The notes under the pieces are model-generated. The model did not search any database, was not told the DNA's origin, and worked only from the letters and a program-made list of their open reading frames with translations. Positions 2,018 to 20,679 of a DNA stretch of 64,000 nt are shown in pieces. The DNA is from Tsukamurella pulmonis (GTDB lineage Bacteria; Actinomycetota; Actinomycetes; Mycobacteriales; Mycobacteriaceae). Made by a program: the position numbers and the translations under genes. Within the stretch, counting starts at the first letter, position 1. Each line of letters begins with the position of its first letter. Location of the stretch: NCBI RefSeq assembly GCF_900103175.1, contig NZ_FNLF01000002.1:1116001-1180000 (forward strand), given 5' to 3'.

Positions 2018-2554
2018 ATGCTCATCGAAGGTCTCATCGCGGTCGTGGTCGTGATCGCCGTGCTCGCGCTCCAGATGCGGGCGCGCCCGGTCCGCTCGTC
2101 GCCGCGCGCAGCGGTGGTCGTGGCCGTCGTCGGCGCGGTCCTCGCCTGGCGCTTCGTCAGCTCGCACGACGTGCCGCTCGGCGACCAGGCGTTCGTCATC
2201 GTCTCGCTGGTGATCGGCGCCGCGATCGCCGTGGCCCGCGCGTACACCGTGCGCCTGTCCCGGGTCGACGGTGCGCTGACCGCGCAGGGGACCGTCGCGA
2301 CGCTCGCGCTGTGGGTCGTCGGCATCGCCGCGCACCTCGGGATCGAGCTGCTCAGCGGCGAATCAGGCCTCGGCACCGCCTCGCTCACGCTCTACATCGG
2401 TGTCGTCGCGTTCGTGCAATCCGTGGTGATCCTGCTGCGCGCCAAGTCCGCCGGGCTGCTCGCCGACGACGTCGACCTGTTCGCGCGCCGCAGCGAACTG
2501 CGCGGGCACCTCGGCACCGAGCGCCGCCGCGGCCGCCGGCGGGCCGACCGATGA
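2018..2554 (+). CDS. Five-helix membrane protein of unknown function
   Basis: The 178-residue protein starts at the ATG 5 nt after a strong GGAGG (2008-2012); an in-frame GTG 12 nt upstream is less likely. Five hydrophobic segments are visible, at about residues 3-20, 32-48, 58-77, 90-112 and 120-142. A charged, Arg-rich cytoplasmic tail follows. It resembles small uncharacterised actinobacterial membrane proteins of the DUF1453 kind, but I cannot confirm that family. It overlaps the next gene (FabD-like) by ATGA, so it is the first gene of the long biosynthetic transcript. It may help export or membrane anchoring, or may simply be a co-transcribed neighbour. Confidence 0.7.
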   Translation: MLIEGLIAVVVVIAVLALQMRARPVRSSPRAAVVVAVVGAVLAWRFVSSHDVPLGDQAFVIVSLVIGAAIAVARAYTVRLSRVDGALTAQGTVATLALWVVGIAAHLGIELLSGESGLGTASLTLYIGVVAFVQSVVILLRAKSAGLLADDVDLFARRSELRGHLGTERRRGRRRADR

Positions 2555-3471
2555 CGAGCCCCGATCTCGCGGTCCTCGCGCCCGGCCAGGGCGCGCAGAA
2601 GCCCGGCGTCCTCGCGCCCTGGCTGCGGGGCGAGGAGCCGCGGGCGCTGCTCGCGGACTGGTCCGCCGCGGCCGGCCTGGACCTGGCGGACCTCGGCACC
2701 CGCGCCCCCGCCGAGGTGCTCCGCCGGACCGAGGTCGCCCAGCCCGTGCTGGTCGCCACGGCGCTGCTCGCCACCGCCCGCGAACTACCGGCGCACCTGC
2801 GCCTGATCGTCGCCGGGCACTCCGTCGGAGAGCTCGCGGCCGCCGCCGTGGCGGGGGCGCTGGCCCCGCGCGACGCCGTCGCCCTCGCCGCCGCCCGCGG
2901 TCGCGCCATGGCGCTGGCCTGCGCCGAGGTCGAGTCCGGCATGCTCGCCGTCCTCGGCGGCGAACCCGCCGCGGTCCTGGCCGGCATCGAGGCGGCCGGC
3001 CTCGCCGTCGCCAACCGCAACGGCGCCGGGCAGATCGTCGCCGCCGGCCCCGCCTCGGCCGTGTCCGCCCTGCTCGCCGCACCCCCCGCGGGGAGCACCG
3101 CCCGTCGGCTCGAGGTCGCCGGGGCCTTCCACACGCCGTTCATGGAGCCGGCGCGCGCCGCCTTCGCCGCCGCGGTCGGGGCCGTCGCGTTCGCCGACCC
3201 GGTGCACCGCCTGCTCGGCAACGCCGACGGTGCCGAGATCACCACCGGCGCGCAGTGCGCCGCCCGGCTCGTCGATCAGCTCACCGCGCCGGTCCGGTGG
3301 GACCTGTGCCAGGCGGCGGTCGTCGAGGCGGCGCCCGCCGGCATCGTCGAACTCCCGCCCGCCGGCGTGCTCTCCGGGCTGCTGCGCCGCACCGGCGGCC
3401 CGCGCGCCACCGCCCTCGGCCGCCCGGGCGAGCTGACCCGCGCCGCGGCGCGCACGGCGGTGCCCGCATGA
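2551..3471 (+). CDS. Malonyl-CoA:ACP transacylase (FabD-like)
   Basis: This 306-residue enzyme should move a malonyl group from CoA to a carrier-protein thiol, supplying the extender unit of the cluster. The FabD fold is shown by GQGAQ at about residues 12-16 and by GHSVGE with nucleophile Ser91. It is also shown by Arg116 in ARGRAM, which in FabD binds the malonyl carboxylate, and by His194 in AFHTPF as the catalytic base. It is about the usual FabD length. It overlaps both neighbours by ATGA. The conserved Arg favours malonyl over acyl substrates. It looks like a cluster-dedicated copy because it sits with two carrier proteins and ketosynthases, not with a housekeeping fab operon. Confidence 0.9.
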   Translation: MTSPDLAVLAPGQGAQKPGVLAPWLRGEEPRALLADWSAAAGLDLADLGTRAPAEVLRRTEVAQPVLVATALLATARELPAHLRLIVAGHSVGELAAAAVAGALAPRDAVALAAARGRAMALACAEVESGMLAVLGGEPAAVLAGIEAAGLAVANRNGAGQIVAAGPASAVSALLAAPPAGSTARRLEVAGAFHTPFMEPARAAFAAAVGAVAFADPVHRLLGNADGAEITTGAQCAARLVDQLTAPVRWDLCQAAVVEAAPAGIVELPPAGVLSGLLRRTGGPRATALGRPGELTRAAARTAVPA

Positions 3472-4888
3472 GCGGCCTCGGGGCGCTGTTGGCGGCCGCG
3501 GCCGCGCGGCACGGCGCCCGGATCGCCCTCGTCGACGGCGACGGGCGGATGGACTACGCGCAGCTCCTCGCCGCCGCGCGGAACGTGGCGGCCGGGCTCC
3601 GCGCGGCCGGCGTCACGCCCGGCGATCGCGTAGTGCTGCGCGCCGCGCCCGACCGCCGATCGGTCGCCACGATCTACGGAACCTCCCTCGCCGGAGCGGT
3701 TCCCGTGCCCCTGCATCCCGACGCGACCGACGACCAGCTCGAGTACGTCGCCGCGGACTGCGCCGCCGCCCTGGTGCTGCGCGACGAAGCGGCCCTCGCC
3801 GCGCTCGCAGCGTCCGCCGGCTCCGCCGACCCCGCGGCCGACGGCACCGGGGACAGCGATGCGCCCGCGCTGCTGATCTACACCTCCGGCAGCACCGGCC
3901 GGCCCAAGGGCGTCATCTGCCCCGCACGTGCCGTCGACGCCGCGATCGCCGCCGTCGGCGCCGCGCTGCGGTACCGGGGCGACGACGTCATCCTCTGCCG
4001 CCTGCCTCTGGCCTTCGACTACGGCCTCTACCAGCTCCTGCTCGCCGCGCGGGTCGGCGCCGCCGTCGTCCTGGCCGCGCCCGCCGCCGACATCGAACTC
4101 GCCGACGTGCTCGCGCGGGAGGGCGTCACCGTCGTCCCCCTCGTCCCGGAGCTGGCCCGCCTCCTCGTCGCCGTGCACGGCGGGGCGCCCGGCGCCGCCG
4201 GGGTCCGGCTCCTCACCAACACCGGGGCGCGGCTGGCGCCCGAGCTCGGGGGGACCTGTTGCGGGTCTTCCCCGGCGCGGGCATCGTCGCGATGTACGGC
4301 ACCACCGAGTGCAAGCGGATCTCGGTGCTGCCGCCCGAGGAGTACGCCGCCGCACCGGAATCCGTCGGCCACCCGATCGACGGGCTGCGCGTGCGGATCG
4401 ACCCGGGCACGTCCGAGATCGTGGTGCGCGGCGCCACTCTCATGGACGGCTACTGGAACGACGACGCCGCCACCGCGCACCGCTACCGGCGGGACCCGGC
4501 CACCGGCGAGCGGGAGCTGTGGACCGGCGACACCGGGCGCATCGACGCCGACGGCCGCCTGTACGTCGACGGCCGGCTCGACGACGTCTTCAAGCGGCGG
4601 GGCGTGCGCGTGTCCCTCACCGAGGTCGAGGCCGCCGCACTGCGGGTGCCCACCGTGCGCGCCGCGGTGGCCGCGCGGTCCGGTGAGCGCCTGTTCCTGT
4701 TCGTCGTCGCCGACACACCCGTCGCCGCCCTCGGTCGCGACCTCGCCGCCCGGCTGGACCCGCCCCGCCGTCCCGACCGGATCGTCGCCGTCGCATCGAT
4801 ACCCCTGAACCCCAACGGAAAAGCGGATCGCGCCGCGCTCGTCCGCGCGATCACCGCCCCGCCGATCGACGAGGAGATCACCGCATGA
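3468..4888 (+). CDS. Adenylate-forming acyl/aryl ligase, frame broken at G6
   Basis: This would be a class I adenylating enzyme that activates a carboxylic acid with ATP, probably for loading a carrier protein. The N-terminal part (3468 to about 4250) carries the P-loop TSGSTGRPKG at residues 139-148 and ends in frame at TNTGARLAPELGG. The C-terminal part continues in another frame from about 4251 to 4888 with MYGTTECKR, the GDTGRIDADGRLYVDGRLDD core, and Lys in NPNGKADRAAL. The break lies at a run of six G (4248-4253); one extra G restores a continuous ligase of about 473 residues. It overlaps both neighbours by ATGA. The choices are sequencing error, slippage or inactivation; the rest of both halves is intact. 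Confidence 0.8.
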
Positions 4889-5121
4889 CCGCCGACCGAT
4901 TCACCGACTTCCTGCGCGCCGCCGCCGATCTCGACCCGGCCGCCGACCTCGCCGACGACGTGGCCTTCGCCGACCTCGGCCTCGACTCCCTGGGCATCGT
5001 CTCCGTCTACCTCGCCGCGCGCCGCGAGTACGGCGTCACCATCACCGCCGACGACGTCGCGAGCGGCGCCGTCGACACCGTCGGCGGCCTGCGCCGGCAC
5101 CTCGCCGAGGCGGCCGCGTGA
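4885..5121 (+). CDS. Acyl/peptidyl carrier protein (first of two)
   Basis: This 78-residue acidic protein has the carrier-protein signature GLDSLG, with Ser35 as the expected phosphopantetheine attachment site. It overlaps the ligase by ATGA and the aminotransferase by GTGA, so its most likely loading enzyme is the adjacent ligase. Length and the four-helix pattern fit a stand-alone carrier protein. It differs clearly from the second carrier protein at 11445-11747 (DSLG against DSLD, and no N-terminal extension), which suggests separate jobs: one for a starter or amino-acid unit, the other for chain building. That division is inferred. Confidence 0.9.
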   Translation: MTADRFTDFLRAAADLDPAADLADDVAFADLGLDSLGIVSVYLAARREYGVTITADDVASGAVDTVGGLRRHLAEAAA

Positions 5122-6275
5122 TCACCCGCACCGGGGCCGGACCCGACCTGTTCACCGTGCCGCCGGGCACCGTCTCGCTCGCGGGCGGCATGCCCGCTCT
5201 CGGCACGCTGCCCTGGCCCGAGATCGCCGCCGCCACCGGCGCGACGCTCGAACTCGCCGGGCCGACGGTGCTGCAGTACGGCCGGCCCGTCGTCGGATCG
5301 ACGCTGGCCCGGCGGATCCGGGACCTGCTCGCGCTGCAGGGCGCGGACGTCGACGCCGCCGAGCTGATCCCGACCGCCGGATCCCAGATGGGGCTGTGCG
5401 TGGTGGCCGCCGTGCTCGGTCGCGACGCCGACACCGTGCTGTGCGAGGCCCCGTCCTACCCGGGCGCGCTCGCCGCCTTCCGCGACCGCGGCCTCGAGCC
5501 CGTCGCCGTGCCCGCCGACGCCGACGGCGTGGACCCGGACGCCGTCGCGGGCCTGGTGCGCCGCCGCCGGCCCGCCTTCCTCTACGTGAACCCGACCTTC
5601 CACAACCCCACCGGCAGAGTGATGCCGCGGCAGCGGCGCCGCGATCTCCTGGCGGCCTGCGCCGCAGTGGATCTGCCCGTCGTCGAGGACGATCCGTACG
5701 GCCTGCTCTCCTTCGACGGTCACCTGCACACCTCGCTGCTCGCGCTCGCCGGCCCCGGCGGCGACGTGATCCACCTGGGCACCGCGTCGAAGATCTTCGC
5801 CCCCGGACTGCGGGTGGGCTGGATAGCCGCGCCCGCGCACCGTCGGTCCGCCCTCGCCGCGCAGGCCGACCTGATGTCGCTCTCGCCGTCGGTGTTCGCG
5901 CAGGGCGTGGTGGCCGACTTCCTCGCCGGACCGTCCTGGCCCGCGCAGCTCGACGTCTTCCGCCGCGAGTACCGCGAGCGGGCCGAGATCGCCGACGGGG
6001 CCCTGCGTTCCGCCGGCGCCGAGCGGCACTGGCGCTGGGAGCGGCCGCGCGGAGGCTTCTACCTGTGGCTCACCGCCCGCGCGGGCGGCGTCGACGCCGA
6101 GGCGGTCGCCGAGCGGGCCCGCCGGGCGGGCGTGCTCGTGGTCCCGGGGCGCCACTTCTCCGTCGCCGGCGAGAGCGACGACGGGCTGCGGCTGTGCTTC
6201 ACCGGGCCCCGGCGCGCGCAGCTCGCCCCCGCCGTCGAGCGGCTCGGCGCCGTGCTCGCGGAGGTGGGCGCATGA
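5118..6275 (+). CDS. PLP-dependent aminotransferase (fold type I)
   Basis: This 385-residue enzyme would transaminate an amino or keto acid, or a carrier-bound keto intermediate, in the cluster. Fold-type-I aminotransferase features are the NPTFHNPTG segment at about 158-166, Asp-Asp-Pro-Tyr near 191-194, the PLP-binding Lys225 in TASKIFAPGLRVGW, and an Arg near the C-terminus (LRLCFTG). It resembles the LysN/MocR-type aminotransferase domain but lacks a GntR helix-turn-helix, so it is an enzyme rather than a regulator. It starts at GTG in a GTGA overlap with the carrier protein and ends in an ATGA overlap. The substrate is not known. Confidence 0.88.
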   Translation: MITRTGAGPDLFTVPPGTVSLAGGMPALGTLPWPEIAAATGATLELAGPTVLQYGRPVVGSTLARRIRDLLALQGADVDAAELIPTAGSQMGLCVVAAVLGRDADTVLCEAPSYPGALAAFRDRGLEPVAVPADADGVDPDAVAGLVRRRRPAFLYVNPTFHNPTGRVMPRQRRRDLLAACAAVDLPVVEDDPYGLLSFDGHLHTSLLALAGPGGDVIHLGTASKIFAPGLRVGWIAAPAHRRSALAAQADLMSLSPSVFAQGVVADFLAGPSWPAQLDVFRREYRERAEIADGALRSAGAERHWRWERPRGGFYLWLTARAGGVDAEAVAERARRAGVLVVPGRHFSVAGESDDGLRLCFTGPRRAQLAPAVERLGAVLAEVGA

Positions 6276-8596
6276 CCGCCGCCGCCACTCGGGCACTGAT
6301 CGTCGACGACGCCGCCCTGCGCGAGCGGGTCCCGCTCGCGGGCGGGTGGAGTGCCTGGCGCGCGGCGGTCCTGCGCAGCACCGGCTTTCCCGTCGAGGGC
6401 CTGGACCAGCTGGTCGACGACGCCGTCGGCGCCGCCGCGGACCGCTACCGCGCGGGCGAGCTGAGCGGCGAGGACTACCGGGCCCGGTTCTCCGAGGCGG
6501 CGGAGACGGTCGGCGCACGCCTGCGCGCGGTGGTGACCGACGACCGCTTCCTGCGGGCGCTGGTGTGGCAGAACCGCTCCGCCGCGGGCGCCGCCGACCG
6601 CGTGGCGCGGCACACGGGCGCGGGCAACGCCAAACACCGTGCCCGCGAACGCCTGGTGGCCCGGTACTGGCAGCGCTACTGCGGCAAGGCGGAGACCATC
6701 GGCTTCTTCGGCCCCGCCGCCTGGGTCGACCTCGGCGCGCCCGGCGGGGAGCTGCGGCACGCGCCGCCCACCGGCACGGACATCGTGGCCGACCGGCACG
6801 TGGTCCTCGAATCGTGGGCCGTGATCGAGCTCGCCCGGTGGATGGCCGAGCAGCCCGGCGTGCGCGCGTGGCTGCCGCCCATGCTGCGGCCGGACACCCT
6901 GCTCGACGGTGCGCGGGCCCTGGTCGGCGGGCGGCGCGCCGTGCGGCTCACCCCGGAGGAGGCGCTGATCGCGGCCTCCGCCGACGGCGAGACCCCCGCG
7001 GCCGAGCTGGGATCCGGGTTCGGCATGCCCCGCACGACGGCGCTGGAGACCGTCGCGCGGCTCGCCGAGCGCCAGGTGCTCTCCTGGGACGGCAACATCA
7101 GCCTGGGGCCCGACGCCGAGGCGCAGCTGGCCCGCCGGGTCGCGCGGATCGCCGACCCCGTGGCCGCCGCCCCGTGCATCGCCGTCCTCGAATCCCTCGC
7201 CACGCACCGCGCGGACATCGAGGCGGCCGTCGACGCCGAGACGCTCGACGCCGCGCTGGGCGCCCTGGACCGCTGGTTCGCGGCCCTCACCGGCCGTGCC
7301 GCCGACCGCTCCTCCGGCGCCTCCTACGCCGGGCGCACCCTCGTCTACCACGACTGCGTGCGCGCGGACCGGGTCGAGGTCGGCGCCGACGTCCTCGGCG
7401 CGGTGGGCCCCGCGCTGGCGCTCGTCGCCGACTCCGCCACCTGGTTCTCCGCCCGCCTGGCGCAGGAGTACCGGGCCGACATCACCCGCGAGATCGTCGA
7501 CGCCCGCCGCCGCGGGCGCGGCGCCGAGGTGACCCTCGCCGACGTCCTCGCGCGGATCCTGCCGCTCTTCTTCGGCGACGCCGGCGACCGCGCGGTGGAC
7601 CGCGCCGCCGCCGAGCTCTCGGCGCGCTGGGAACGGGTGCTCGACCGGCTCCTGGCGCACGCCGACGGGACCGGTGCGGTCCGCGCCACCGCGGCGGATC
7701 TCGCCCCGCTCGTGGCCGACGAGTTCGGCGGCGCCGAGCCGGGGTGGCCGCACTCGGTCATCCACAGCCCCGACCTGCAATTGGTCGCCACCGACCCGGA
7801 CGCGGTGGCCCGCGGCGAGTTCCGCGTGGTGCTGGGCGAGCTGCACGCCTGCATGCCCAGCCTCGACGTGCCGCCGCTGACCTGGTCCATCCCCGGCAGC
7901 GTGCGCGAGGCCGTGGACGCCGAATGCGTTCTGCCCCGACTGGTCCCGTTGTTCCCCGCGGGGTGGCGGCGCAACACCGGCCGGTTCATCCCCACGACCC
8001 TCGGTGCCACCGAGGTCGCCATCGGCTTCGCGAAGGCCTCGGTCATCGGCCGGTCGCGGGTGGTGCCCGCGGGCGCGATCGTGCTGCAGGACGACGGATC
8101 GGCGCGCACCCCGGACGGCCGGAGCTGGAGCTTCGGCCAGACGTTCGGCTCGTTCCTGTCGATCGTGGCGGCCGACGCCTTCAAGGTCGGCCTGCCCGGC
8201 GCCCACGCCCCGCGCGTGGAGATCGACCGCCTGGTGCTCTTCCGCGAGACCTGGCGGCCCGAGGCGGGTTCGCTGGTGCTCACCGCCCGCAGCGACGAGG
8301 CCGAACGGTACGCGGTCTTCCGCGCCTGGGCGCGCCACGTGGGCCTGCCGCGCCGCACTTACGCCAAGGTCCCCGGCGAACCGAAGCCGCTGTTCGTCGA
8401 CCTGGACAGCCCCGTGCTGGTCGCCGGGCTGCTCTCGACCCTGCGCGGCGACGGTGCGCCGCGCCCCGACGCGCGCCTGACGTTCAGCGAGGCGCTGCCC
8501 GACCGCGACGACTGCTGGCTCCGCGACGCCGACGGCGCCCGCTACGTCAGCGAGTTCCGGCTCCATCTCAGCCGCACCCCGGAGGGAATCCGATGA
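6272..8596 (+). CDS. LanB-type protein (lantibiotic dehydratase N-domain family)
   Basis: The 774-residue protein carries the hallmark of the LanB N-terminal (aminoacyl-tRNA-dependent, glutamylating) domain: a basic KHRARERLVARY helix followed by a Y-C-K-TIGFFGP motif at about 131-148. Its C-terminus has an EFRLHLSRTPEG ending. Full-length LanB dehydratases are about 1000 residues, with a further elimination domain of about 300 residues, which is missing here. The protein is thus like split glutamylation domains or PEARL-type peptide aminoacyl-tRNA ligases. No precursor peptide gene is visible nearby. In this context it may form an amide from an aminoacyl-tRNA, but this is inference. It overlaps both neighbours by ATGA. 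Confidence 0.8.
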   Translation: MTAAATRALIVDDAALRERVPLAGGWSAWRAAVLRSTGFPVEGLDQLVDDAVGAAADRYRAGELSGEDYRARFSEAAETVGARLRAVVTDDRFLRALVWQNRSAAGAADRVARHTGAGNAKHRARERLVARYWQRYCGKAETIGFFGPAAWVDLGAPGGELRHAPPTGTDIVADRHVVLESWAVIELARWMAEQPGVRAWLPPMLRPDTLLDGARALVGGRRAVRLTPEEALIAASADGETPAAELGSGFGMPRTTALETVARLAERQVLSWDGNISLGPDAEAQLARRVARIADPVAAAPCIAVLESLATHRADIEAAVDAETLDAALGALDRWFAALTGRAADRSSGASYAGRTLVYHDCVRADRVEVGADVLGAVGPALALVADSATWFSARLAQEYRADITREIVDARRRGRGAEVTLADVLARILPLFFGDAGDRAVDRAAAELSARWERVLDRLLAHADGTGAVRATAADLAPLVADEFGGAEPGWPHSVIHSPDLQLVATDPDAVARGEFRVVLGELHACMPSLDVPPLTWSIPGSVREAVDAECVLPRLVPLFPAGWRRNTGRFIPTTLGATEVAIGFAKASVIGRSRVVPAGAIVLQDDGSARTPDGRSWSFGQTFGSFLSIVAADAFKVGLPGAHAPRVEIDRLVLFRETWRPEAGSLVLTARSDEAERYAVFRAWARHVGLPRRTYAKVPGEPKPLFVDLDSPVLVAGLLSTLRGDGAPRPDARLTFSEALPDRDDCWLRDADGARYVSEFRLHLSRTPEGIR

Positions 8597-11397: not shown

Positions 11398-11444
11398 CGT
11401 CCCGATCCGTTCCGCAATCCCCGCACCCACGAAGGAGAACCACC

Positions 11445-11747: not shown

Positions 11748-12238
11748 CGACGTCCGTCGACGCCCCGGCGAGCGCCGGCCTGCGCAGCTACGACGCGTCG
11801 GCGATCCTGTCGATGCTGCCGCACCGCTGGCCGTTCCTGCTCATCGACGGCGCGTTCGACGTCGATCCGGGACGCTCGGGCAAGGGCGTCAAGAACGTCA
11901 GCCTCGCCGAGCCCTACTTCGCCGGGCACTTCCCCGGGGATCCGATCGTCCCGGGCGTGCTCATCATCGAGGCCCTCGCCCAGCTCACCGCCATCGTCTA
12001 CGTGGCCCAGGCGCAGGAGTCCGGGCACCCCGCGCCCGCGTCCACCGTCGGCTACCTCGGCGCGATCAACCGGGTGAAGTTCCACCGCGTGGTTCGGCCC
12101 GGTGAGCGGCTCGACCTCGCGGTCACCCTCACCACGGCGCTGGGCGATCTGCGCACCGTCGACATCGCCGCCCACGTGGGCCGGGAGAAGGTCGTGACCG
12201 GCACGATCACCGTGAGCAACCGGGCGGGCGAGCGATGA
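11744..12238 (+). CDS. 3-hydroxyacyl-ACP dehydratase (FabZ-like)
   Basis: This 164-residue hot-dog-fold enzyme would dehydrate beta-hydroxyacyl-carrier intermediates to trans-2-enoyl chains. The family signature is complete: LPHRWPFLLID at about 25-35, His62 in AGHFPGDPIVPG and Glu76 in LIIEALAQ. Together with the ketoreductase and the absence of an enoyl reductase in the cluster, it suggests an unsaturated, possibly polyene, acyl chain. That inference fails if a housekeeping enoyl reductase acts on the chain. ATGA overlaps on both sides. Confidence 0.92.
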   Translation: MTTSVDAPASAGLRSYDASAILSMLPHRWPFLLIDGAFDVDPGRSGKGVKNVSLAEPYFAGHFPGDPIVPGVLIIEALAQLTAIVYVAQAQESGHPAPASTVGYLGAINRVKFHRVVRPGERLDLAVTLTTALGDLRTVDIAAHVGREKVVTGTITVSNRAGER

Positions 12239-14268
12239 CCGCGGCGGTGCAGCAGCACGCGGCCGACGCCGCGGACGCGGACGTGCGGGTCCGGCCCCTC
12301 GTCGACGACGATCTCGCGCAGATCGCCGCCCTGTACGCGGCGCACCCGGACAACCCCAACCCGATCGGGGTGCCGCTCACCGCCGACGCCCTGCGCGCCG
12401 AACTGCGCGACCGCGGCACCGTCGCCTTCACCGTCGCGGTCGTCGACGGTGCCGTGGTCGGCACCTTCGGCCTGTTCGAGTCCACCGGACGCCGGGTCGC
12501 CGAGCCCGGCCAGCTTCTGGCCGACATGTTCTTCGTCGCGCCGGAGCACCGTCGCGGCAGCCTCACGGGGAACCTGTTCGCCGCCACCGTGGACACGATG
12601 ATCGCCCTCGGGTACGGGGTGCTGCGGCTGACCGTCAACCCGGCCAACGCGATCGCCTACCGCCTCTACCGCCGCGTCGGCTCGCTCGCGCTCGCGCCCG
12701 CCGCGGCCGGGGCCGACGGCAACGTCGAGCTCTACAACGTGATCCCGCTCCTGCTGAGCACCGCGGCCCCGCACCTGCCCGCCGCCGTGATCGAGGCGGC
12801 CCGCTCCCGGGAGACCTTCCGGTTCGGCGCCACGCAGGGCCGCGACGCCGGGCACCACTGCGACGTGCGGACCGCCGCCGACGGCACCCCCGTCGTGCGC
12901 ACCACCGTCCACCTCGGCGGTGCCGAGCTCGACGCCGAGCTCGACGCAGACACCCTCACGATCCGCTCCTTGACCCTGCGTCACGACGGCGAGGAGACCG
13001 CCCTGCCGGTGCCGGCCGCCGCGCCCCGCGTCGCGCGCGCCGCCCCGACGGAGCTGCGCCGCGGCGACTGGCACGTGCGCGTCGATGACGCCGACGGCGC
13101 GATCACTCTGCGCCACCCCGGATTCCGCGGCGACCTGCTGGCGATCGCCTGGCCCGCGGCCGGCGGCACGCGCCCGGCCTGGCGCCGCGGCCGGCGCGGC
13201 GACTTCGCCGTCACCGCGACCGCGGCCGGCCTGACGATCCTCGACCGCGCCGACCCCGCGTCCGTCGTCGTCGACCTCGCGATCGCCGACGGCCCCGACG
13301 GCCCGGTGCTCGAACACCGCGTCACCGGCGGGCCGCACCGCCGGCTGTACCTGACCGGCCTGCGCGCCGGCACCGTGCGCAGTGCGGCGGGGACGGCGCG
13401 GATCGGGACCGACCTGGCGGCGCCGGGGGAGCGGATCGTGCCCGACACCGCCGAGATCCCCGCCGCCGCACCCGCGGCGGGCGACCGGGTGACCTGGTCC
13501 GGCGGGTTCCGGATCGTCGCCGAGGCGACCGGGATGGATGCGCGCCTCGTCGACGCCACGACCCTGGACGTGCGCGCGGACTCCGGATCGACGGTGCGAT
13601 TGCGCCTGAGCGCGCCCGGACCCGCCGGGGCGCCGCAGGTCACTGGCGGGCGGCTGCGCGCGGCGGGGCGCCCGCTGGCCCTGGACCCGGCAGTCGGAGG
13701 AGCCCGCACCTGGGCCCCGGGCGGCCGCCCCGTGCTGTGGGGGCCGCACCCGCGCGTCCGTGCCCTCGGACACCTGCCCCAGTGGCGGGCGGGGCTCTGG
13801 GTCACCGCCGAGCAGCCGGACCGCACCGCCGGCGTCGGCTGGGGCGCCGCCCCCGGCGCGATCTGGGCCACTGCCGGTGACGGGCTCGACGGTGACGGGA
13901 TCAGCTGGTGTGCGGTCGAATCCGAGACCGAGCACGGTCCGGAGCTCACCGTCGACGTCGACGACCGCGGGCCGCGTGCCGCCGTCCTGTGGTGCACGCC
14001 CCGCACCGCCCGCACCGGCGACGTGCTGCTCGGCGACGCCCGGATCCCGCTCGGTGCGAGCCGGCACCGCTGGGCCCGCCCCGGTGAGGAGCCCTCGATC
14101 CCGCTGCCCGATGGCGGCACCCTCACCCTGCACGCCCCCGCGGGCGGCGAACTGCTCGTCCGCGCCACCCCCGCCGGACTGCTGATCGGCGGGCTCTGTC
14201 CCCCCGGCCGCAGCACCTGGCGCATCACCGTCCGAACCAGCCGAACCACCACCGAGGAGAACCGATGA
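12235..14268 (+). CDS. GNAT acetyltransferase fused to a large unknown domain
   Basis: Residues about 15-165 form a GNAT N-acyltransferase: VRVRPLVDDDLAQI start, MFFVAPEHRRGSLTG acetyl-CoA loop near 98-112, and LTVNPANAIAYRLYRRVG. The remaining about 500 residues have no motif I recognise. They are rich in short alternating hydrophobic stretches, Gly and Thr, look all-beta (sugar-mutarotase or jelly-roll-like), and contain several Trp-rich blocks such as RTWAPGG and GHLPQWRAGLWV. No transmembrane helix is seen. The gene overlaps both neighbours by ATGA. It might acylate an amine such as diaminopropionate; the C-terminal half could bind glycan or ligand. Function is not established. Confidence 0.7.
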   Translation: MTAAVQQHAADAADADVRVRPLVDDDLAQIAALYAAHPDNPNPIGVPLTADALRAELRDRGTVAFTVAVVDGAVVGTFGLFESTGRRVAEPGQLLADMFFVAPEHRRGSLTGNLFAATVDTMIALGYGVLRLTVNPANAIAYRLYRRVGSLALAPAAAGADGNVELYNVIPLLLSTAAPHLPAAVIEAARSRETFRFGATQGRDAGHHCDVRTAADGTPVVRTTVHLGGAELDAELDADTLTIRSLTLRHDGEETALPVPAAAPRVARAAPTELRRGDWHVRVDDADGAITLRHPGFRGDLLAIAWPAAGGTRPAWRRGRRGDFAVTATAAGLTILDRADPASVVVDLAIADGPDGPVLEHRVTGGPHRRLYLTGLRAGTVRSAAGTARIGTDLAAPGERIVPDTAEIPAAAPAAGDRVTWSGGFRIVAEATGMDARLVDATTLDVRADSGSTVRLRLSAPGPAGAPQVTGGRLRAAGRPLALDPAVGGARTWAPGGRPVLWGPHPRVRALGHLPQWRAGLWVTAEQPDRTAGVGWGAAPGAIWATAGDGLDGDGISWCAVESETEHGPELTVDVDDRGPRAAVLWCTPRTARTGDVLLGDARIPLGASRHRWARPGEEPSIPLPDGGTLTLHAPAGGELLVRATPAGLLIGGLCPPGRSTWRITVRTSRTTTEENR

Positions 14269-15314
14269 GCGAGAACCCGACCGACTACGCCGGCTACCGC
14301 GCCCTGCGCGACGGCGCGGGGGTCTACCGGCGCCCGGACCACGGCGTCGTCGTCCTCACCGGCGACGACCGCCTGCACGTGCTCGATCGCGTGCTGTCCA
14401 AGGGCAGCGACTTCACCGACCCCGACACCGCGCGCGAGGCCGTCATCGTCACCGCCGACGGCGCGCCGCTGGCCCTGGTCCTGCACGTCGAACTCGACGA
14501 CGCCTCCGTGCTCCTCGCGCTCACCCCGCTCGATGCCGGCGCGCTGGCTGCCCGCGTGCGGGAGATCGCCACCGGCACACCGGACGCCGGCGACACCGCG
14601 GTGACCGAGCCCGCCCTCGCCGGGATCGCCGTCGAGGGGCCCGCCGCCTGGCGGGTGGCCGCCGAGTTCCTCGACTTCGACGTCTCCGGCCTGGTGCTGG
14701 GCGCCGTGGAGCGCGCCGCCCACGCGGAACTGCCCGCCGCCGGTTTCGAGCCGCGGATCGTCCGCACCGGCACCACCGGCGAGTACGGCTACCTGCTGCT
14801 GGTGGACGCCGCCTCCGCGGACGCGGTGCACGAGCTGGTGCACCGGCTCGCCGCGCCCCACGGGGGCGCCCCGGTCGCCACCGACGAGCTGTGGCGGGCC
14901 CAGGCCGAGGTCGCCTCGCCGCTCTACGGCACGGGGTTCGACGGTCTGTCCACCGCCGAGGCCGACGTCAGCTGGCTCATCGACTTCGCCCGCATCGGCG
15001 CCTTCGACGGCTCCGACGCCATCGCAGCGCCCCCGGAGCCGGGCCGGCGCCTGACACCGCTCCTGCTCGGCGCCTCCGCCCGCGTCCGCGGCGGCGAGGC
15101 CGTCACCGCGGGCGATGCGGGCGACCGCGTCGGGACACTCGTCGCCGCCTCGATCCCGGTGGACGGCAACCGGATCGCCTACGCCGTGATCGAGGACCCG
15201 TTCCACGCGCCCGGCCTCGCGCTCGCCGTCGACGGGGAGGCCGGCAGCCTGCCCGCCGCGACCGTCGCGCTGCCGCTGCTGGTGACCCGGTCCACCACCG
15301 AGCGGATCGGCTGA
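14265..15314 (+). CDS. GcvT-like (aminomethyltransferase/YgfZ fold) protein
   Basis: The 349-residue protein resembles the folate-binding aminomethyltransferase family. It has an N-terminal DRLHVLDRVLSKGSDF segment, a middle VEGPAAWRVAAEFL region and TGTTGEYGYLLLV near 168-180, equivalent to the RTGYTGE motif that contacts folate in GcvT. A C-terminal barrel includes PDPFHAPG-like EDPFHAPG. The conserved Asp that activates folate in GcvT cannot be assigned with confidence. A tetrahydrofolate-dependent one-carbon step or a YgfZ-like scaffold role are both possible. It sits between the GNAT fusion (ATGA overlap) and the double ketosynthase (4-nt gap). Confidence 0.7.
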   Translation: MSENPTDYAGYRALRDGAGVYRRPDHGVVVLTGDDRLHVLDRVLSKGSDFTDPDTAREAVIVTADGAPLALVLHVELDDASVLLALTPLDAGALAARVREIATGTPDAGDTAVTEPALAGIAVEGPAAWRVAAEFLDFDVSGLVLGAVERAAHAELPAAGFEPRIVRTGTTGEYGYLLLVDAASADAVHELVHRLAAPHGGAPVATDELWRAQAEVASPLYGTGFDGLSTAEADVSWLIDFARIGAFDGSDAIAAPPEPGRRLTPLLLGASARVRGGEAVTAGDAGDRVGTLVAASIPVDGNRIAYAVIEDPFHAPGLALAVDGEAGSLPAATVALPLLVTRSTTERIG

Positions 15315-15318
15315 GCCC

Positions 15319-17604
15319 ATGCCCGCAGTCGTCGTCACGGGTGTCGGCCTGATCTCCGCCGCGGGGAGCACGGCCCAGCAGTGCTGGGACACCCTGCTCT
15401 CCGGCGCCACCGGGATCGTGCCGAACACGGTCTTCCCCACGGACGATCTCCAGGCGGCGATCGCGGGCGTCGCGCCGCTGCCCGAGGGGGAGGAGCAGGA
15501 ACTCGACCGCTGCTACCGGCTCGCGCGCCGGGCGTGCGCCGAGGCCCTGGCGCACGCCGGGCTCGGCCGCGCGGACGCCGCCCGCGCCGGGCTGGTGCTC
15601 GGCTCCAGCCTCGGCGCCATGCCGTCGCTCGAGGACTTCCATCGCGACGTCCTCGCGGCCGGCGCGGTGCGCGACCGGGCCGCGGCGCGCGCGGGCATCG
15701 ACACCCAGTTGCACTGCGCCGCCGACTACGTGGCGGGCGAGTTCGGACTGGGCGGGCCGCGCGTGGTGACCTCCAACGCGTGCGCCGCCGGGGCCGTCGC
15801 GCTGGGCTACGCGGCGGAGCTGCTCTGGCGCGGCGACGCCGACGTGGTGATCTGCGGCGGCGTCGACCCGCTCACCACGCTCTCGGCCCACGGCTTCTCC
15901 AGCCTCGGCGCGCTCGCGGAGAGCCCGTGCTCGCCGTTCGCCGCGTCCGACGGCCTCTCGCTGGGCGAGGGCGCGGGCTTCCTGGTGCTGGAGTCCGAGG
16001 AGCACGCGAGGGCTCGCGGCGCCGCGCCGCTCGCCCGGCTCGCCGGCTACGACCTCAGCAGCGACGGCTTCCATCAGACCGCCCCCGACCCGGGCGGCGA
16101 CGGGGCGCGCCGCGCGATGGAGGGCGCCCTCGCCGCGGCCGCGCTCGGGCCCGGCACCGTCGACTACGTGAACCTGCACGGCACCGGCACCCCCACCAAC
16201 GACGCCGTGGAGCCGAAGGCGATCCGCTCGGTGTTCGACGCCCCGCCGCCGGTGAGCTCGACGAAGTCCGTGGTGGGCCACACCCTCGGCGCCGCCGGTG
16301 CCGTGGAGGCGGTCGTCGGCGTCCTCGCGCTCACCGACGGGGTGCTGCCGCCCACCGTCGGCACGCGCGGCGACGCCGAGCGGACCGGGCTCGACATCGT
16401 GCCGGACCGGGCCCGGGAGGCACCCGTGCGCACCGTGCTGTCGAACTCCTTCGCCTTCGGCGGCAACAACGCCGCGGTGGTGCTGCGCCACGCCGCCGAG
16501 CCGGCCGGCGCGGCCGACGCCGCGGCGCAGGAGGCGCCGGTGATCACCGGGATCGCGGCGCTCGCGGGATCGGCGCAGTCGACGGCGGAGGTCCTCGCGG
16601 CGCTGAGGACGGGCGAGCCCGTCCACGAGCAACTCGGGCCACTGCGGTTCGCCCGGCTCGACCAGGCCGCGGTCGCGCGCCGGATCAACCCGGCCAAAGT
16701 GCGCAAGATGGACCCGATGAGCGTCTTCGCCGCCGGGGCGGTGGCGGATCTGCACGCGGCCTTCGGCAAGCCCGACCGCGCCGGGCTGGCCCGCGCGGGC
16801 ATCGTCCTGGGCACCGGGTACGGGCCGCTGAGCGCCGTCGCCGAGTTCCACCGCGGCGTCGTCGAGCACGGCAGCGCCGGCGCCAATCCCACCGTCTTCG
16901 CCAACACCGTGCAGAACGCGGCCGCGGGGCACCTGAGCGTGCTGCACCGCTACCGGGGCTTCACCGCCACCCTGACCTGCGGCGGCACCAGCACCGTCTC
17001 CGCGCTCTACCTCGCGCGGGCCGCGCTCGCCCGCGGCCAGGCCGACCGGATCGTGGTCGTCGTGGTCGACGAGTTCCCCGAGCTCGCCGCACAGGTGTAC
17101 GGCGCCACCGGCAACGCGCGGCACGGCGCGCTGGGCGAGGCGGCCGTCGCGCTCACCGTCGAACGCGCCGACACCGCCCGCGCCCGCGGCGCCGCACCGC
17201 TGGCGAGCCTCGCCGGGATCGGCATGGCGGGCGAGCCCGCCGGCATCGGCCGCGTGGGCGGCGACCCGGCGGCCTGGGCGCACGCCCTGACCCGCTCGCT
17301 CAAGGACGCCGGGCCCGGCGAGCCCGACCTCGTCGGCGCCGCCGCGACGGGCCACCGCACCATCGACGGGGCCGAGGCGGCCGCGCTCGACGCCGCGGGG
17401 CTCGCCGCCGTCGCGCGCTCCACGCCGAAGGCGGTGCTGGGCGAGACCGTCGGCTCCGCGGGCGCTCTCGCGCTGCTCGACGGCATCGACCGGCTCCGCG
17501 ACGGCGGGCGGCTCGTGGTCTCCTCGTACGCCCTCGGCGGCAGCTACCAGGCCGCGGTCTTCGACGTCCCCGCCGGGCGGCCGGACCCGGAGGGCGCCCG
17601 ATGA
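15319..17604 (+). CDS. Fused tandem beta-ketoacyl synthase (active plus degenerate half)
   Basis: This 761-residue protein contains two ketosynthase folds in one chain. The first half (about 1-395) has a complete Cys-His-His set: Cys155 in TSNACAAG, His287 in LHGTGTPTND and His321 in VVGHTLGAAG. The second half (about 405-750) keeps the fold pattern but is degenerate. The nucleophile region reads LTCGGTSTVS (Cys554 is shifted two residues against the first half) and the second His is replaced in LGETVGSAG (Glu709). This recalls a KS-alpha/chain-length-factor pair fused into one gene. It would condense malonyl-carrier with the growing chain. ATGA overlap with the phosphopantetheinyl transferase. 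Confidence 0.88.
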   Translation: MPAVVVTGVGLISAAGSTAQQCWDTLLSGATGIVPNTVFPTDDLQAAIAGVAPLPEGEEQELDRCYRLARRACAEALAHAGLGRADAARAGLVLGSSLGAMPSLEDFHRDVLAAGAVRDRAAARAGIDTQLHCAADYVAGEFGLGGPRVVTSNACAAGAVALGYAAELLWRGDADVVICGGVDPLTTLSAHGFSSLGALAESPCSPFAASDGLSLGEGAGFLVLESEEHARARGAAPLARLAGYDLSSDGFHQTAPDPGGDGARRAMEGALAAAALGPGTVDYVNLHGTGTPTNDAVEPKAIRSVFDAPPPVSSTKSVVGHTLGAAGAVEAVVGVLALTDGVLPPTVGTRGDAERTGLDIVPDRAREAPVRTVLSNSFAFGGNNAAVVLRHAAEPAGAADAAAQEAPVITGIAALAGSAQSTAEVLAALRTGEPVHEQLGPLRFARLDQAAVARRINPAKVRKMDPMSVFAAGAVADLHAAFGKPDRAGLARAGIVLGTGYGPLSAVAEFHRGVVEHGSAGANPTVFANTVQNAAAGHLSVLHRYRGFTATLTCGGTSTVSALYLARAALARGQADRIVVVVVDEFPELAAQVYGATGNARHGALGEAAVALTVERADTARARGAAPLASLAGIGMAGEPAGIGRVGGDPAAWAHALTRSLKDAGPGEPDLVGAAATGHRTIDGAEAAALDAAGLAAVARSTPKAVLGETVGSAGALALLDGIDRLRDGGRLVVSSYALGGSYQAAVFDVPAGRPDPEGAR

Positions 17605-18143
17605 CGGCGCACGCCACCGTCTTCCGCTGCGCGGGACCGCGGGACGAGCGCGGCCGCACGCGGACGGCGGGCACCGGGCGCGCCCTGCTCACCCGCGCCG
17701 CCGCGCCGCTGGGCCTCGGCGCACCGCGCCGCACCCGCACCGGGGGCTGGGCGTGGCCGGAGGACGGCTGGCACGGCTCGGTGGCGCACTGCGCGGACAC
17801 CGCCGTCGTGGTGCTCGCCCGCTGCGGCGTCGGCGTCGACGCCCAGGAGCACCGCGACCGCCCGCGCGCCCTGGCGGCCGTGGCCGCGATGCTGGGCCGC
17901 GACCGCGCGGACGTCCGGGACTTCGCCGAGGTCGAGGCCGTGATCAAGCTGATCGGCCCGCAGCACGCCGCGCTCGCCGGGCTCCGGCTGCCCGGCCGCG
18001 AGCACGGCTGGCGCGCCGCCCCGTTCGGGGTGATCGGCTCCGCCGTCGACGAGCGCGGCCTCGCCGTCGCCGTCGCCGCCGAACGGCCGCTGGACGTGCG
18101 GTGGCGGGCCGTGGGCGCACCGGCGACGGGGCCGCTGTGGTGA
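17601..18143 (+). CDS. 4'-phosphopantetheinyl transferase (Sfp-type, short)
   Basis: This 180-residue protein has the two Sfp signatures in order: GSVAHC followed by VGVDAQE (Asp80, Gln82/Glu83, magnesium ligands) and FAEVEAVIKLIG, the equivalent of WxxKEAxxK (Glu112, Lys116). It would transfer the phosphopantetheine arm from CoA to the two carrier proteins in the cluster. It is shorter than Sfp (about 225) and has Phe instead of the usual Trp in the second motif, but all metal and CoA-binding positions I can judge are present. It is coupled to the ketosynthase (ATGA) and to the next gene (GTGA). Confidence 0.8.
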   Translation: MTAHATVFRCAGPRDERGRTRTAGTGRALLTRAAAPLGLGAPRRTRTGGWAWPEDGWHGSVAHCADTAVVVLARCGVGVDAQEHRDRPRALAAVAAMLGRDRADVRDFAEVEAVIKLIGPQHAALAGLRLPGREHGWRAAPFGVIGSAVDERGLAVAVAAERPLDVRWRAVGAPATGPLW

Positions 18144-19267
18144 GCGCGGTGCGGGCACCGGCGTACGCGCGGCGCGTCTCGCAGATCGAACGCAGCTACC
18201 TCGCCGCGGCCGCGGCGGGCTCCGACTGCGCCATCCGGCTCGTGGTGGAGGGCACGGGCGCGCTCGCGTTCGCGGACCTGCGCGCCGCCGTCGACGTCGC
18301 GGCGGCCGCCCACCCGGGCCTGTCCGCGCTCCGCCGCGGGGGCCTGTGGCGCGGTGGCGGTCCCGCGCCCCGCGTTGTCGCGTCGTCGCTGCCCGTCGAC
18401 GACGACCCGCGGATCCGCGCCGAGCTCTCGGTGCGCACCGGCCCCGTCGCCGAGATCCTCCTGCACCCGGGCGGCGACGGCGGCACGGCCGTGCTCTTCC
18501 GCGCGACGCACGCCGTGACCGACGGGCACGGGGTCATGGACTTCGCCCGCGACGTCTTCCGCGTGCTGCGCGGCGAGGCGCCCACCGGGAACCCCGACGC
18601 GCTCGGCGACGAGCACTTCGTCCGCGCCGCCGGCCGCTCCGGCGCGCCCGCCGGCGGCACCGACCCGGTGCCCGCGCCGTGGCCCGTGCGCGCGCCGGGG
18701 CTGCGGTGGGTGCGGCGCGAGGTGCCGGGGCGGCTGAGCGGCGGCGCCGGGCGCGTGGCAGCCGCGGTACGGGCGGCCGCGCCCGGCCCGGCCCGGGTGA
18801 TGGTGCCCGTGGACCTGCGCCGGCACGACCCCGCGGTGCGCTCGAGCGCGAACCTCACCGCGCCCGTCTTCGTGGACCTGCCCGTGCCGGTGAGCCGGCG
18901 CGCGGTGCAGGCGGAGCTGCTCGCGGCGCTGCTGGACAACCGCGAGGTGGCCGGGCTCGGCGCCGACTACGGCAGCGCCAACCGGTTCGCCCGCACCCTC
19001 GCCGAGGCCACCACCGACGGCAGCGCCGGGCTCCCGGTGACCGCCATCGTCTCCGATCACGGCGCCGTGCCCGACGGTGCCTTCGACGCCCCCGGCTTCC
19101 GCGCCGTCCGGGTGCACACCATGCCCATGTGGGTGCCGTACGCCGCGACCTTCGTCTCGCTCGTGCACGCCGCCGGCCGCACGGTCCTGACCGCGGTCGT
19201 CGCGGACACCCCCGACGCCGTGGCCGCGATCGAGCGGGTCCTCGCCGCGGCAGTGGAGGAACCATGA
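18140..19267 (+). CDS. Condensation/PapA-like acyltransferase
   Basis: The 375-residue protein starts at GTG in a GTGA overlap. It carries HAVTDG at residues 124-129, matching the HxxxDG active-site motif of condensation domains, polyketide-associated acyltransferases and related CoA-dependent acyltransferases. An N-terminal Q-x-E-R-x-Y segment and a later RVMVPVDLRR strand fit the two-lobed fold. It would form an ester or amide by passing a carrier-bound acyl group to an acceptor, for example diaminopropionate. It is somewhat shorter than a canonical condensation domain (about 430). Acceptor identity is inferred from context only. Confidence 0.8.
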   Translation: MSAVRAPAYARRVSQIERSYLAAAAAGSDCAIRLVVEGTGALAFADLRAAVDVAAAAHPGLSALRRGGLWRGGGPAPRVVASSLPVDDDPRIRAELSVRTGPVAEILLHPGGDGGTAVLFRATHAVTDGHGVMDFARDVFRVLRGEAPTGNPDALGDEHFVRAAGRSGAPAGGTDPVPAPWPVRAPGLRWVRREVPGRLSGGAGRVAAAVRAAAPGPARVMVPVDLRRHDPAVRSSANLTAPVFVDLPVPVSRRAVQAELLAALLDNREVAGLGADYGSANRFARTLAEATTDGSAGLPVTAIVSDHGAVPDGAFDAPGFRAVRVHTMPMWVPYAATFVSLVHAAGRTVLTAVVADTPDAVAAIERVLAAAVEEP

Positions 19268-20679
19268 TCCGAACCGCACCGTCGACCCCGATGATCACCG
19301 GCATCGCCGTGGTGGGCTCGCTGCTGCCGCTGCTGGACTCGACGATCGTCAACATCTCGCTGCACGCCACCGCCGACCGGTTCGGCACCATCACCGACGT
19401 GCAGTGGGTGGTCACGGGCTACCTGCTGGCCCTGGCCGCGACCATGCCCGTGACGGCCTGGCTGGCCCGGCGCTACGGCCGCTACCGCACCTTCCTGGTC
19501 GCGGTGATCGCGTTCGCCGCCGGCTCGGTGGTCTGCGCCGTGAGCCCCAGCCTGGAGGTGCTCATCGCAGGTCGCGTGCTCACCGGCGCCGCCGGCGGCG
19601 TGCTCGCGCCCATCTCGACGGTGGTGCTCACGGCCGGGGTGCCGCGCGAGCGGCTCGGCGCCGTGCAGTCGCTCAACGGCACCGTCATGCTGGCGGGCCC
19701 GCTGATCGGGCCCACCGTCGGCGGGGTGCTGCTCGAGCACGGGGGATGGCGCTCGATCTACTGGGTGGCCGTGCCGGTGTGCGTGGTGGTCGTCGCGCTC
19801 GCCCTCGTCGCGCTGCCCCGCGACGCCGGCTCGCGCAGCGCGCCGCTCGACGTGCCGGGGCTGGTCTCCGGATCCGCCGGCGTCACCGCGCTCGTGTTCG
19901 CCCTGCGCGAGGCCGCCGTGCCGCACCGCGACCCCGTGGAGATCGCCGCGCTCACCCTGCTCGCGGTCGGCGGGACCGCCCTGTTCATCCGTCGCGAGCT
20001 CACCGCGGAGCACCCCCTGCTCAACCTGCGGCTGTACGCGGACCGTCGATACGCGTGGGCCAGCGCCTGCGTGGCGCTGGTCGGCATGCTGCTCTACGCC
20101 CCGATGGTGATCGTGCCGCTGTACCTGCAGAGCGAGCGCGGCGAGTCCGCGATCCGCACGGGCCTGATCATGTCCTTCGGCGGGATCGGCGCCATCGTCA
20201 TGGGCGCGCGCACCGCCCGCATCGTGCAGCGGCTCGGCGCGGGGCGGACCCTGCTGATCGGCCTGGCCGTGGTGGGCGCCTCGACGGTGCCGCTGATGCT
20301 GCTCACCGCGACCACGCCGATCTGGATCATCGCCGTCACGCTGGTGGTGCGGGGGATCGGCGTCTCGCTGTCGATCGTGCCGGCGATGACGAGCGCCTTC
20401 GTGGCCATCACGCCGCAGGACATCCCCGACGCGTCGCCCCAGCTCAACCTGCTGCAGCGGATCGGCGGGGCGCTCGCGGTCACCGGCGTGACCATCGTGA
20501 TGCAGTCCGACGGGCTCGAGGTGGGTGCCGGCGGGCCGGTGCTCAGCGCCTTCACCCACGGCTTCGACCTGGTCCTGGTGGTCACGGTGGTCACCGGCTT
20601 CGCCGCGCTCGGGCTGGTCCGTGCCGAGGCGCGGGAGCGGGCGCCGAAGCAGACGGAGCTCGTGGGAGCGGTCGACTGA
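19264..20679 (+). CDS. MFS drug/metabolite exporter (DHA2 family)
   Basis: This 471-residue membrane protein has about 14 hydrophobic segments. It carries the DHA2 hallmarks LDSTIVN (about 22-28), an ARRYGRY loop between helices 2 and 3, and GRVLTGAAGG plus GPLIGPTVGGVL in helices 4 and 5. It is a proton-driven exporter of the EmrB/QacA type. As the last gene of the coupled block (ATGA overlap with the acyltransferase), it most likely exports the cluster's product and gives self-protection. Confidence 0.9.
   Translation: MIRTAPSTPMITGIAVVGSLLPLLDSTIVNISLHATADRFGTITDVQWVVTGYLLALAATMPVTAWLARRYGRYRTFLVAVIAFAAGSVVCAVSPSLEVLIAGRVLTGAAGGVLAPISTVVLTAGVPRERLGAVQSLNGTVMLAGPLIGPTVGGVLLEHGGWRSIYWVAVPVCVVVVALALVALPRDAGSRSAPLDVPGLVSGSAGVTALVFALREAAVPHRDPVEIAALTLLAVGGTALFIRRELTAEHPLLNLRLYADRRYAWASACVALVGMLLYAPMVIVPLYLQSERGESAIRTGLIMSFGGIGAIVMGARTARIVQRLGAGRTLLIGLAVVGASTVPLMLLTATTPIWIIAVTLVVRGIGVSLSIVPAMTSAFVAITPQDIPDASPQLNLLQRIGGALAVTGVTIVMQSDGLEVGAGGPVLSAFTHGFDLVLVVTVVTGFAALGLVRAEARERAPKQTELVGAVD

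Follow-up and report, generated by a model that had tools for sequence, protein, structure and literature searches.

A rare, conserved gene cluster of Tsukamurella pulmonis that combines reducing type II polyketide genes, a diaminopropionate synthase pair and a putative PEARL-like amide ligase

One question raised by the genome of Tsukamurella pulmonis (assembly GCF_900103175.1, contig NZ_FNLF01000002.1) is whether sixteen tightly packed genes, located at positions 2551-20679 of the 64,000-nucleotide stretch that was analysed (hereafter the window), constitute a single biosynthetic cluster, and what such a cluster would make. A sequence-only reading had proposed one natural-product cluster, in which a dissociated chain-building set accompanies an SbnA/SbnB-like pair for L-2,3-diaminopropionate (Dap) and a LanB-type gene. 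The cluster was found in eight genomes (window included) from five genus-level groups, nearly colinear in all of them, and it is highly probable that the block is a dedicated biosynthetic cluster.

The LanB protein was present in only one of the 16 genomes of the genus, that of T. pulmonis itself. A search for LanB in genome contigs provided 62 loci, and five of them, four from Rhodococcus (L004-L007) and one from [Pseudopropionibacterium] massiliense (L056), showed the same neighbours in the same order, the only exception being the SbnA/SbnB genes of P. massiliense, which are placed after the exporter gene. Two further members were G394, with the same order and a LanB protein 45% identical to that of the window, and the Streptomyces-like G651, found through its GcvT protein. 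All 16 genes were present in the window (with the ligase gene interrupted), Rhodococcus sp. IEGM 1381, P. massiliense, G394 and G651, and 14 of the 16 were seen in L005-L007, where the available stretch ends after the phosphopantetheinyl transferase (PPTase) gene. The window proteins are 24-66% identical to those of the four other lineages, and recurrence of nearly the same order in eight genomes at this level of identity is more than chance would give. G394 and G651 formed the closest pair among the five lineages for each of the 16 genes (the ligase was compared without the window and ACP1 without P. massiliense). The cluster LanB proteins formed one clade with 100/100 support in a tree of 23 proteins, of which six came from the eight cluster members and the remaining 17 from 16 of the other 57 loci. 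The agreement of all the genes on the closest pair, together with the single LanB clade, indicates that the block travels as a unit. The claim of a single cluster was thus borne out, and the conserved co-occurrence in related genomes that a look at gene neighbourhoods might reveal was indeed found.

Searches with two proteins that the earlier reading had left out of its description of the block, the GNAT-beta and the GcvT-like proteins, gave a measure of its rarity. The GNAT-beta protein was detected (E<=1e-20) in five of 351 genomes of the family, those of T. pulmonis and the four Rhodococcus, and in one of 396 genomes of the phylum, again T. pulmonis, and it is a cluster-specific marker. The GcvT protein was matched at E of about 1e-138 or better in two of 394 genomes of the class, T. 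pulmonis and G651, with the next match at 5e-33. The cluster is rare but well conserved.

The sixteen genes lie on the forward strand, from the FabD-like gene to the gene of a major facilitator superfamily (MFS) exporter, and 11 of their 15 junctions are 4-base ATGA/GTGA overlaps, in agreement with the earlier description of genes in one direction mostly joined in this way. The others are a 1-base overlap between SbnA and SbnB (4 bases if SbnB starts at the GTG at 9606), an 8-base overlap between SbnB and the ketoreductase (KR) gene, a 4-base gap between GcvT and the ketosynthase (KS) gene, and a 47-base gap between KR and ACP2, the largest inside the operon. These tight junctions make a single transcript likely. 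Upstream, a gene for a small membrane protein (2018-2554, forward strand; a PNTB match below cut-off) is ATGA-coupled to the FabD-like gene at 2551. No sigma-70 consensus promoter was found at 1700-2600, where two terminator-like patterns were located (1733-1755, forward strand; 0.2 expected). Profile matches supported FabD, the AMP ligase, both carrier proteins, the aminotransferase, the LanB N-domain, SbnA, SbnB, FabG, FabZ, GNAT, the GcvT-like protein, KS and the MFS protein, so that the dissociated chain-building set and the Dap-forming pair both received support, and so did most of the functions listed earlier. Two points needed correction: the ligase is not one open frame, and the condensation-like protein matched no Pfam family. 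The PPTase-like protein (17601-18143, forward) was supported weakly (PF17837, 4.5e-4; 20.7 bits vs a cut-off of 27).

The SbnA-type Dap synthase subunit (8593-9609, forward) scored 377.7 bits with TIGR03945, above the equivalog cut-off of 349.95, as did its counterparts in all five lineages tested (G651 402.6, G394 384.5, Rhodococcus 360.3 and P. massiliense 381.5 bits). The SbnB-type subunit (9609-10646, forward; TIGR03944) passed the cut-off of 326.9 in three of the five lineages (G651, G394 and P. massiliense), and the four orthologues scored 323.9-356.2 bits. The score of the Rhodococcus protein (323.9) and that of the window protein (301.8) fall just below it, a point against the reading proposed here. 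The P. massiliense pair passes both cut-offs even though its genes stand at the opposite end of the cluster, with an SbnA 37% identical to that of the window, and its retention at a different place argues that Dap is needed. Dap is therefore very likely a building block of the product. The same genes could belong to a Dap-carboxylate siderophore in which the fatty chain serves as a membrane anchor. Staphyloferrin B loci contain SbnA/SbnB and an MFS exporter, as does this block, whereas no iron-uptake, hydroxylase or siderophore-synthetase family was matched in it, and we regard a siderophore as very improbable.

The LanB protein (6272-8596, forward) matched PF04738, the LanB N-domain, at 1.1e-28, and this was its sole Pfam family. 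The elimination domain PF14028 was not detected in it or in any of the proteins and gene pieces scanned besides it, 18 in number; nor was PF14028 found in the T. pulmonis genome, in a search that likewise gave nothing in the control genomes. According to the available text of PMC11212132, PEARLs do not co-occur with PF14028. Residues E761, R763, E523, D501 and R35 were invariant in all ten aligned LanB proteins (five cluster proteins and five from other LanB loci), and may correspond to the residues of BhaBC named in the accessible part of PMC11962472, namely Glu813, Arg815, Glu575, Asp558 and Arg34. The two-residue step of the E-x-R motif and the 238 residues between it and the glutamate before it are identical to the BhaBC spacing, and a distance of 260 residues is near those of TglB (259) and BhaBC (255). 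Two points weigh against this comparison: the match is an argument from spacing, made without an alignment to a proven PEARL, and R35 fits Arg34 only through its place near the N terminus. The protein is best read as a putative PEARL-like aminoacyl-tRNA amide ligase rather than a lanthipeptide dehydratase, and PEARL-like amide formation by it is probable. The earlier label, LanB-type, is refined accordingly.

A class I lanthipeptide cluster was set aside: no elimination domain was found, and with a widest internal gap of 47 bases the operon cannot accommodate a gene for a precursor peptide. A related possibility is that the protein is a true dehydratase half, glutamylating a hydroxyl group, and that another protein of the block dehydrates a Dap-like or serine-like residue of the product. 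PF04738 is common to dehydratases and PEARLs, and the nearest solved relative was a lantibiotic dehydratase-domain protein (6ec7, E 2.3e-12), the other PDB profile matches being weak; on the other side stand the same missing elimination domain and precursor, and an E-x-R of PEARL type that never varies in the alignment. We consider such a dehydratase improbable, and keep the PEARL-like function as the preferred one. Among the other LanB loci, L008 (9212-14613) and similar Micromonospora loci carry two adjacent LanB genes between genes of nonribosomal peptide synthetase (NRPS) and polyketide synthase (PKS) type; the first of the two has an extra N-terminal part, thioesterase-like by eye, and these paired loci resemble a doubled threopeptin-type arrangement.

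The chain-building genes begin with the FabD-like malonyl-CoA:ACP transacylase (MAT; 2551-3471, forward; PF00698, 1.9e-22), whose nearest solved structure was a malonyl-CoA:ACP transacylase (2qj3, E 1.8e-72); a VinK-like acyltransferase was set aside, as the nearest solved relative is FabD. The FabG-like KR (10639-11397, forward) passed NF009466 (231.4 bits, cut-off 222) and scored 264 bits with TIGR01830, below the cut-off of 297.75. The dehydratase (DH) FabZ (11744-12238, forward) passed NF000582 (132.6 bits, cut-off 113) and reached 127.8 bits with TIGR01750, below 155.15. Between them lies carrier protein ACP2 (11445-11747, forward; PF00550, 6.8e-11). The KS (15319-17604, forward) is one protein of 761 amino acids, and its first half keeps C155, H287 and H321. 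With the halves aligned, the second half has Gly in place of the Cys in seven of nine proteins and Asn in the other two, and neither His is retained in any of the nine; in the five Dap-cluster proteins the three positions hold Gly, Ala/Ser and Glu. A protein with two active KS units was set aside, the second half being without catalytic residues, and from its sequence the protein is a fusion of KS and chain-length factor (CLF). The block therefore holds a catalytic KS with a Cys-less CLF partner, together with KR, DH and ACP, as in highly reducing type II PKSs, although KS and CLF are fused here and not separate proteins. No enoyl reductase was recognised in the block.

The GcvT-like folate-fold protein (14265-15314, forward; PF01571, 5e-16) is encoded directly before the KS-CLF. 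The Dap-cluster GcvT-like proteins keep a TTGEYGY stretch and, by eye, are without the aspartate of the GGVIDDL-type motif, which we take to be a feature of true GcvT; this loss makes ordinary aminomethyl transfer unlikely. The order ACP-FabZ-GcvT-KS:CLF, without a GNAT-beta gene, occurs at loci L176-L178, and such sets were also found on Priestia megaterium plasmids (two of four matches examined) and in G643. The plasmids are of a Bacillota species (L186 on pBMG6 and L187 on pBM500) and the G643 locus, L202, lies in a Streptomyces-like genome, which places a GcvT-partnered family of fused KS-CLF proteins in two phyla, Actinomycetota and Bacillota. A direct KS-CLF search revealed seven other genomes among 384, besides T. 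pulmonis and G651, and only G643 had a GcvT-like gene nearby. An obligate partnership was ruled out, the gene being absent from the 12-15-kb stretches of the six others, and the link is thus a trait of a subfamily.

Several of these loci had features of their own. L176-L178 represent a different cluster, with KR called in two of the three loci and, by eye, flavin enzyme, hydrolase, sugar-pathway and regulator genes. L186, L187 and L202 are small sets of PPTase, MAT, KR, ACP, FabZ, GcvT-like, KS-CLF and MFS genes. L196-L201 are aryl-polyene-like, with two separate KS genes plus the fused KS-CLF, and the 12 kb examined contained no GcvT-like gene.

The AMP ligase gene (3468-4888, forward) is interrupted in this strain. 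The frame changes near 4240-4260, in a G-rich stretch, between an N part that starts at 3468 and a C part that ends at 4888; both parts keep conserved motifs (the pieces match PF00501/PF13193), whereas the six intact orthologues are single frames of 490-509 amino acids. Both an assembly error and a recent real mutation are possible; given the interruption, this strain may not make the product, and this counts against a functional pathway here. For the intact orthologue of L005 the nearest solved structure was 3wvn (E 1.3e-91, 311 bits in one domain), with related entries 3wv4 and 3wv5, and the best other entry was LgrA, with 256 bits summed over two domains. We take 3wvn to be VinN; residues 246, 315 and 347 of its chain are D, S and R, which would be VinN 230, 299 and 331 under an assumed offset of 16, and this fits that assignment. 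Counterparts of VinN Asp230 and Arg331 (in FDYGLYQ and TECKRIS) were found in all seven ligases, the six intact ones and the window pieces. As far as the available portions of PMC7756342 and PMC12186527 go, these two residues are argued to mark side-chain activation of aspartate. The ligase could accordingly be described as VinN-type, and so refined from the plain ligase of the earlier reading, as was its KS to a fused KS-CLF; it would load an aspartate-like acid through the side-chain carboxyl, with an isoaspartyl thioester on ACP1 (4885-5121, forward; PF00550, 1.8e-8) as the natural reading of its product. Against this stands the Thr found at the counterpart of VinN Ser299 in the aligned ligases, which makes the carboxylate pocket not identical.

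Four further proteins complete the block. The pyridoxal phosphate-dependent aminotransferase (5118-6275, forward; fold type I, LysN/MppQ/MocR-like; PF00155, 1.1e-30) had 2-aminoadipate transaminase 2egy as the nearest solved structure (E 2.1e-50). The GNAT-beta protein (12235-14268, forward) consists of a GNAT domain, whose families were the sole convincing matches, and a mostly-beta C-terminal part of ~500 residues that matched no Pfam family; its predicted structure was poor (mean pLDDT 56, pTM 0.47), the C-terminal part being mostly strands. The putative condensation-like acyltransferase (18140-19267, forward) takes its label from a single motif, H-x-x-x-D-G (H124, D128 and G129), invariant in the four aligned orthologues. 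The last gene encodes a DHA2/EmrB-type MFS exporter (19264-20679, forward; TIGR00711, 262 bits, cut-off 230).

How these proteins might act together was considered next to their assignments. The ligase would adenylate aspartate, or a near analogue of it, at the side-chain carboxyl and load it onto ACP1, leaving the alpha-carboxylate free, and the KS-CLF would extend this isoaspartyl starter, or another one, with malonyl-ACP2. KR and DH would leave double bonds, giving an enoyl or polyenoyl chain. The condensation-like protein, which with the GNAT protein makes up two putative acyl transferases, would release the chain by transfer to an amine, Dap being the simplest choice. The PEARL-like protein would phosphorylate a carboxylate closed to assembly-line extension, either the isoaspartyl alpha-carboxylate or that of Dap, and couple it to an aminoacyl-tRNA, and the MFS protein would export the product, perhaps with an ABC (ATP-binding cassette) pair encoded upstream. 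The product may be an acylated, perhaps unsaturated, Dap compound, as proposed earlier; that it is an exported, acylated pseudopeptide made by this self-contained cluster is plausible but tentative, and the isoaspartyl starter with PEARL capping as drawn is somewhat less assured still. A two-headed logic, in which the type II PKS extends the side-chain carboxyl of an aspartate-like residue, the PEARL-like ligase extends the alpha-carboxylate of the same residue and Dap releases the chain, is rather doubtful.

Several points weigh against an isoaspartyl starter. Use of an aminoacyl starter by the KS is an assumption. No gene for a decarboxylase or a VinM/VinK-like protein was recognised, in a survey that did not search for them one by one, and the FabD-like MAT offers the ACP1 starter no obvious way to the KS. 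No VinN-type ligase was seen near the related GcvT/KS-CLF cassettes, which also favours the main rival, a route in which the amino acid of the ligase and ACP1 is a peptide building block and not the PKS starter. There, a polyenoyl chain made from another starter would be transferred by the condensation-like or GNAT protein to Dap or isoaspartate, and the PEARL-like protein would extend the C terminus. Both the peptide role of the amino acid and this order of steps are possible to about the same degree as the isoaspartyl starter. In the bolagladin and AFC-BC11 pathways, lipopeptides are assembled with the help of stand-alone VinN-type ligases, as described in the available sections of PMC7756342 and PMC12186527, and extension of C termini is a known action of PEARLs, as far as the text at hand of PMC11962472 goes; however, no further peptide-bond enzyme was recognised, and MAT, ligase and ACP1 together head the operon in the five lineages examined, which suits a loading step.

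The site of the cluster was compared across the genus. The block is preceded by an ABC permease gene (289-1074, forward; an ATPase gene lies just upstream) and by a divergent gene of a LuxR-type response regulator (1040-1867, reverse; an open reading frame whose function was read by eye). Of the 15 other genomes of the genus, 12 had matches to the permease and to the DUF5313 region that were 53 to 112 bases apart, and gene calls on L140, L142 and L143 showed that the two genes adjoin. In G004 they were ~56 kb apart, and no permease match was obtained in G010 and no DUF5313-region match in G011. The 19.6 kb between these genes in the window is thus an insert relative to most sister species. The regulator gene lies within it and is missing from the three empty sites on which genes were called. 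In Rhodococcus sp. IEGM 1381, P. massiliense, G394 and G651, relatives of the permease gene immediately precede MAT; the window permease is 53-60% identical to these cluster-linked relatives, 68% to those of three sister species and 86% to that of G004. Sister species (L140, L142, L143 and L138) keep the ABC transporter, the counterpart of window 1-1074, at this site although the cluster is not there. The transporter may be a remnant export or self-protection part left after loss of the cluster, or the cluster may have inserted beside it. The small membrane protein was not seen in the other clusters, with no tblastn match in L004-L007 and L056 and no blastp match in L104, L174 and L175. Elsewhere in the genome, the start of the 61-kb second contig (L185) resembles a plasmid stretch of Tsukamurella tyrosinosolvens with glycosyltransferase and sugar genes, its best plasmid match (83.5% identity over 35% of a 20-kb piece).

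Each enzyme family of the block is known, and the combination is undescribed within the literature searched: no cluster uniting a reducing type II PKS, Dap and a tRNA-dependent ligase was found in open-licence PMC literature, in keeping with the earlier reading, which knew of no described cluster of this kind. If the assignments are true, the cluster would join these three logics and would contain, as far as that literature goes, the first PEARL-like enzyme with a dissociated type II PKS. The GcvT-like gene beside one subset of fused KS-CLFs points to an enzyme function still unassigned within type II polyketide biosynthesis. The compact 16-gene set suits heterologous expression, and its intact relatives make the cluster testable.

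Among the systems compared, P. megaterium pBMG6/pBM500 have, like the block, an uninterrupted series of MAT, KR, ACP, FabZ, GcvT-like, fused KS-CLF, PPTase and MFS genes, and KR-ACP-FabZ followed by GcvT-KS is common to both except for the GNAT-beta gene; they differ in that Dap, ligase, LanB and condensation-like genes are not annotated nearby, and their KS is 34% identical. Highly reducing type II PKSs of ishigamide type and aryl polyene KS-CLFs resemble the block in a KS with a Cys-less partner, in KR, DH and ACP, and in the missing enoyl reductase, whereas here KS and CLF are fused, a GcvT-like partner gene is present and amino-acid genes are attached. PDB entry 6kxd is presumably an ishigamide-type KS.

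Cispentacin and coronafacic acid biosynthesis, in the available text of PMC10698177, also uses a discrete adenylating enzyme that loads a small dicarboxylic acid on ACP and a type II KS pair; in the block, by contrast, KS and partner are fused and the dehydratase passes the FabZ model. A cispentacin-type (amc) system was set aside, as the scores were below cut-off for AmcF (263.6 vs 325), AmcE (51.1 vs 140), AmcB (33.5 vs 80) and AmcH (65.8 and 55.7 on the two ligase pieces vs 370, values lowered by the frame break). Vicenistatin-type macrolactam loading by VinN/VinL, as presented in the accessible part of PMC11284099, shares a VinN-type ligase with the Asp230/Arg331 counterparts and a stand-alone ACP, and differs in the Thr at Ser299 and in VinO, VinM and VinK, for which no counterpart was recognised here; the block also has no type I PKS. 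The threopeptin (sna) cluster, in the sections of PMC11212132 available, combines a modular NRPS with a KS-AT-T PKS, and neither Dap genes nor a dissociated type II set are among the genes named there, whereas the chain builder here is type II and reducing. SnaE is nevertheless alike in being a stand-alone LanB-annotated protein in a PKS/NRPS context with no precursor peptide. It was needed for the addition of threonine to a carboxylate freed by chain reversal, a PEARL-like amide formation on a non-ribosomal substrate such as the one proposed for the LanB protein of T. pulmonis.

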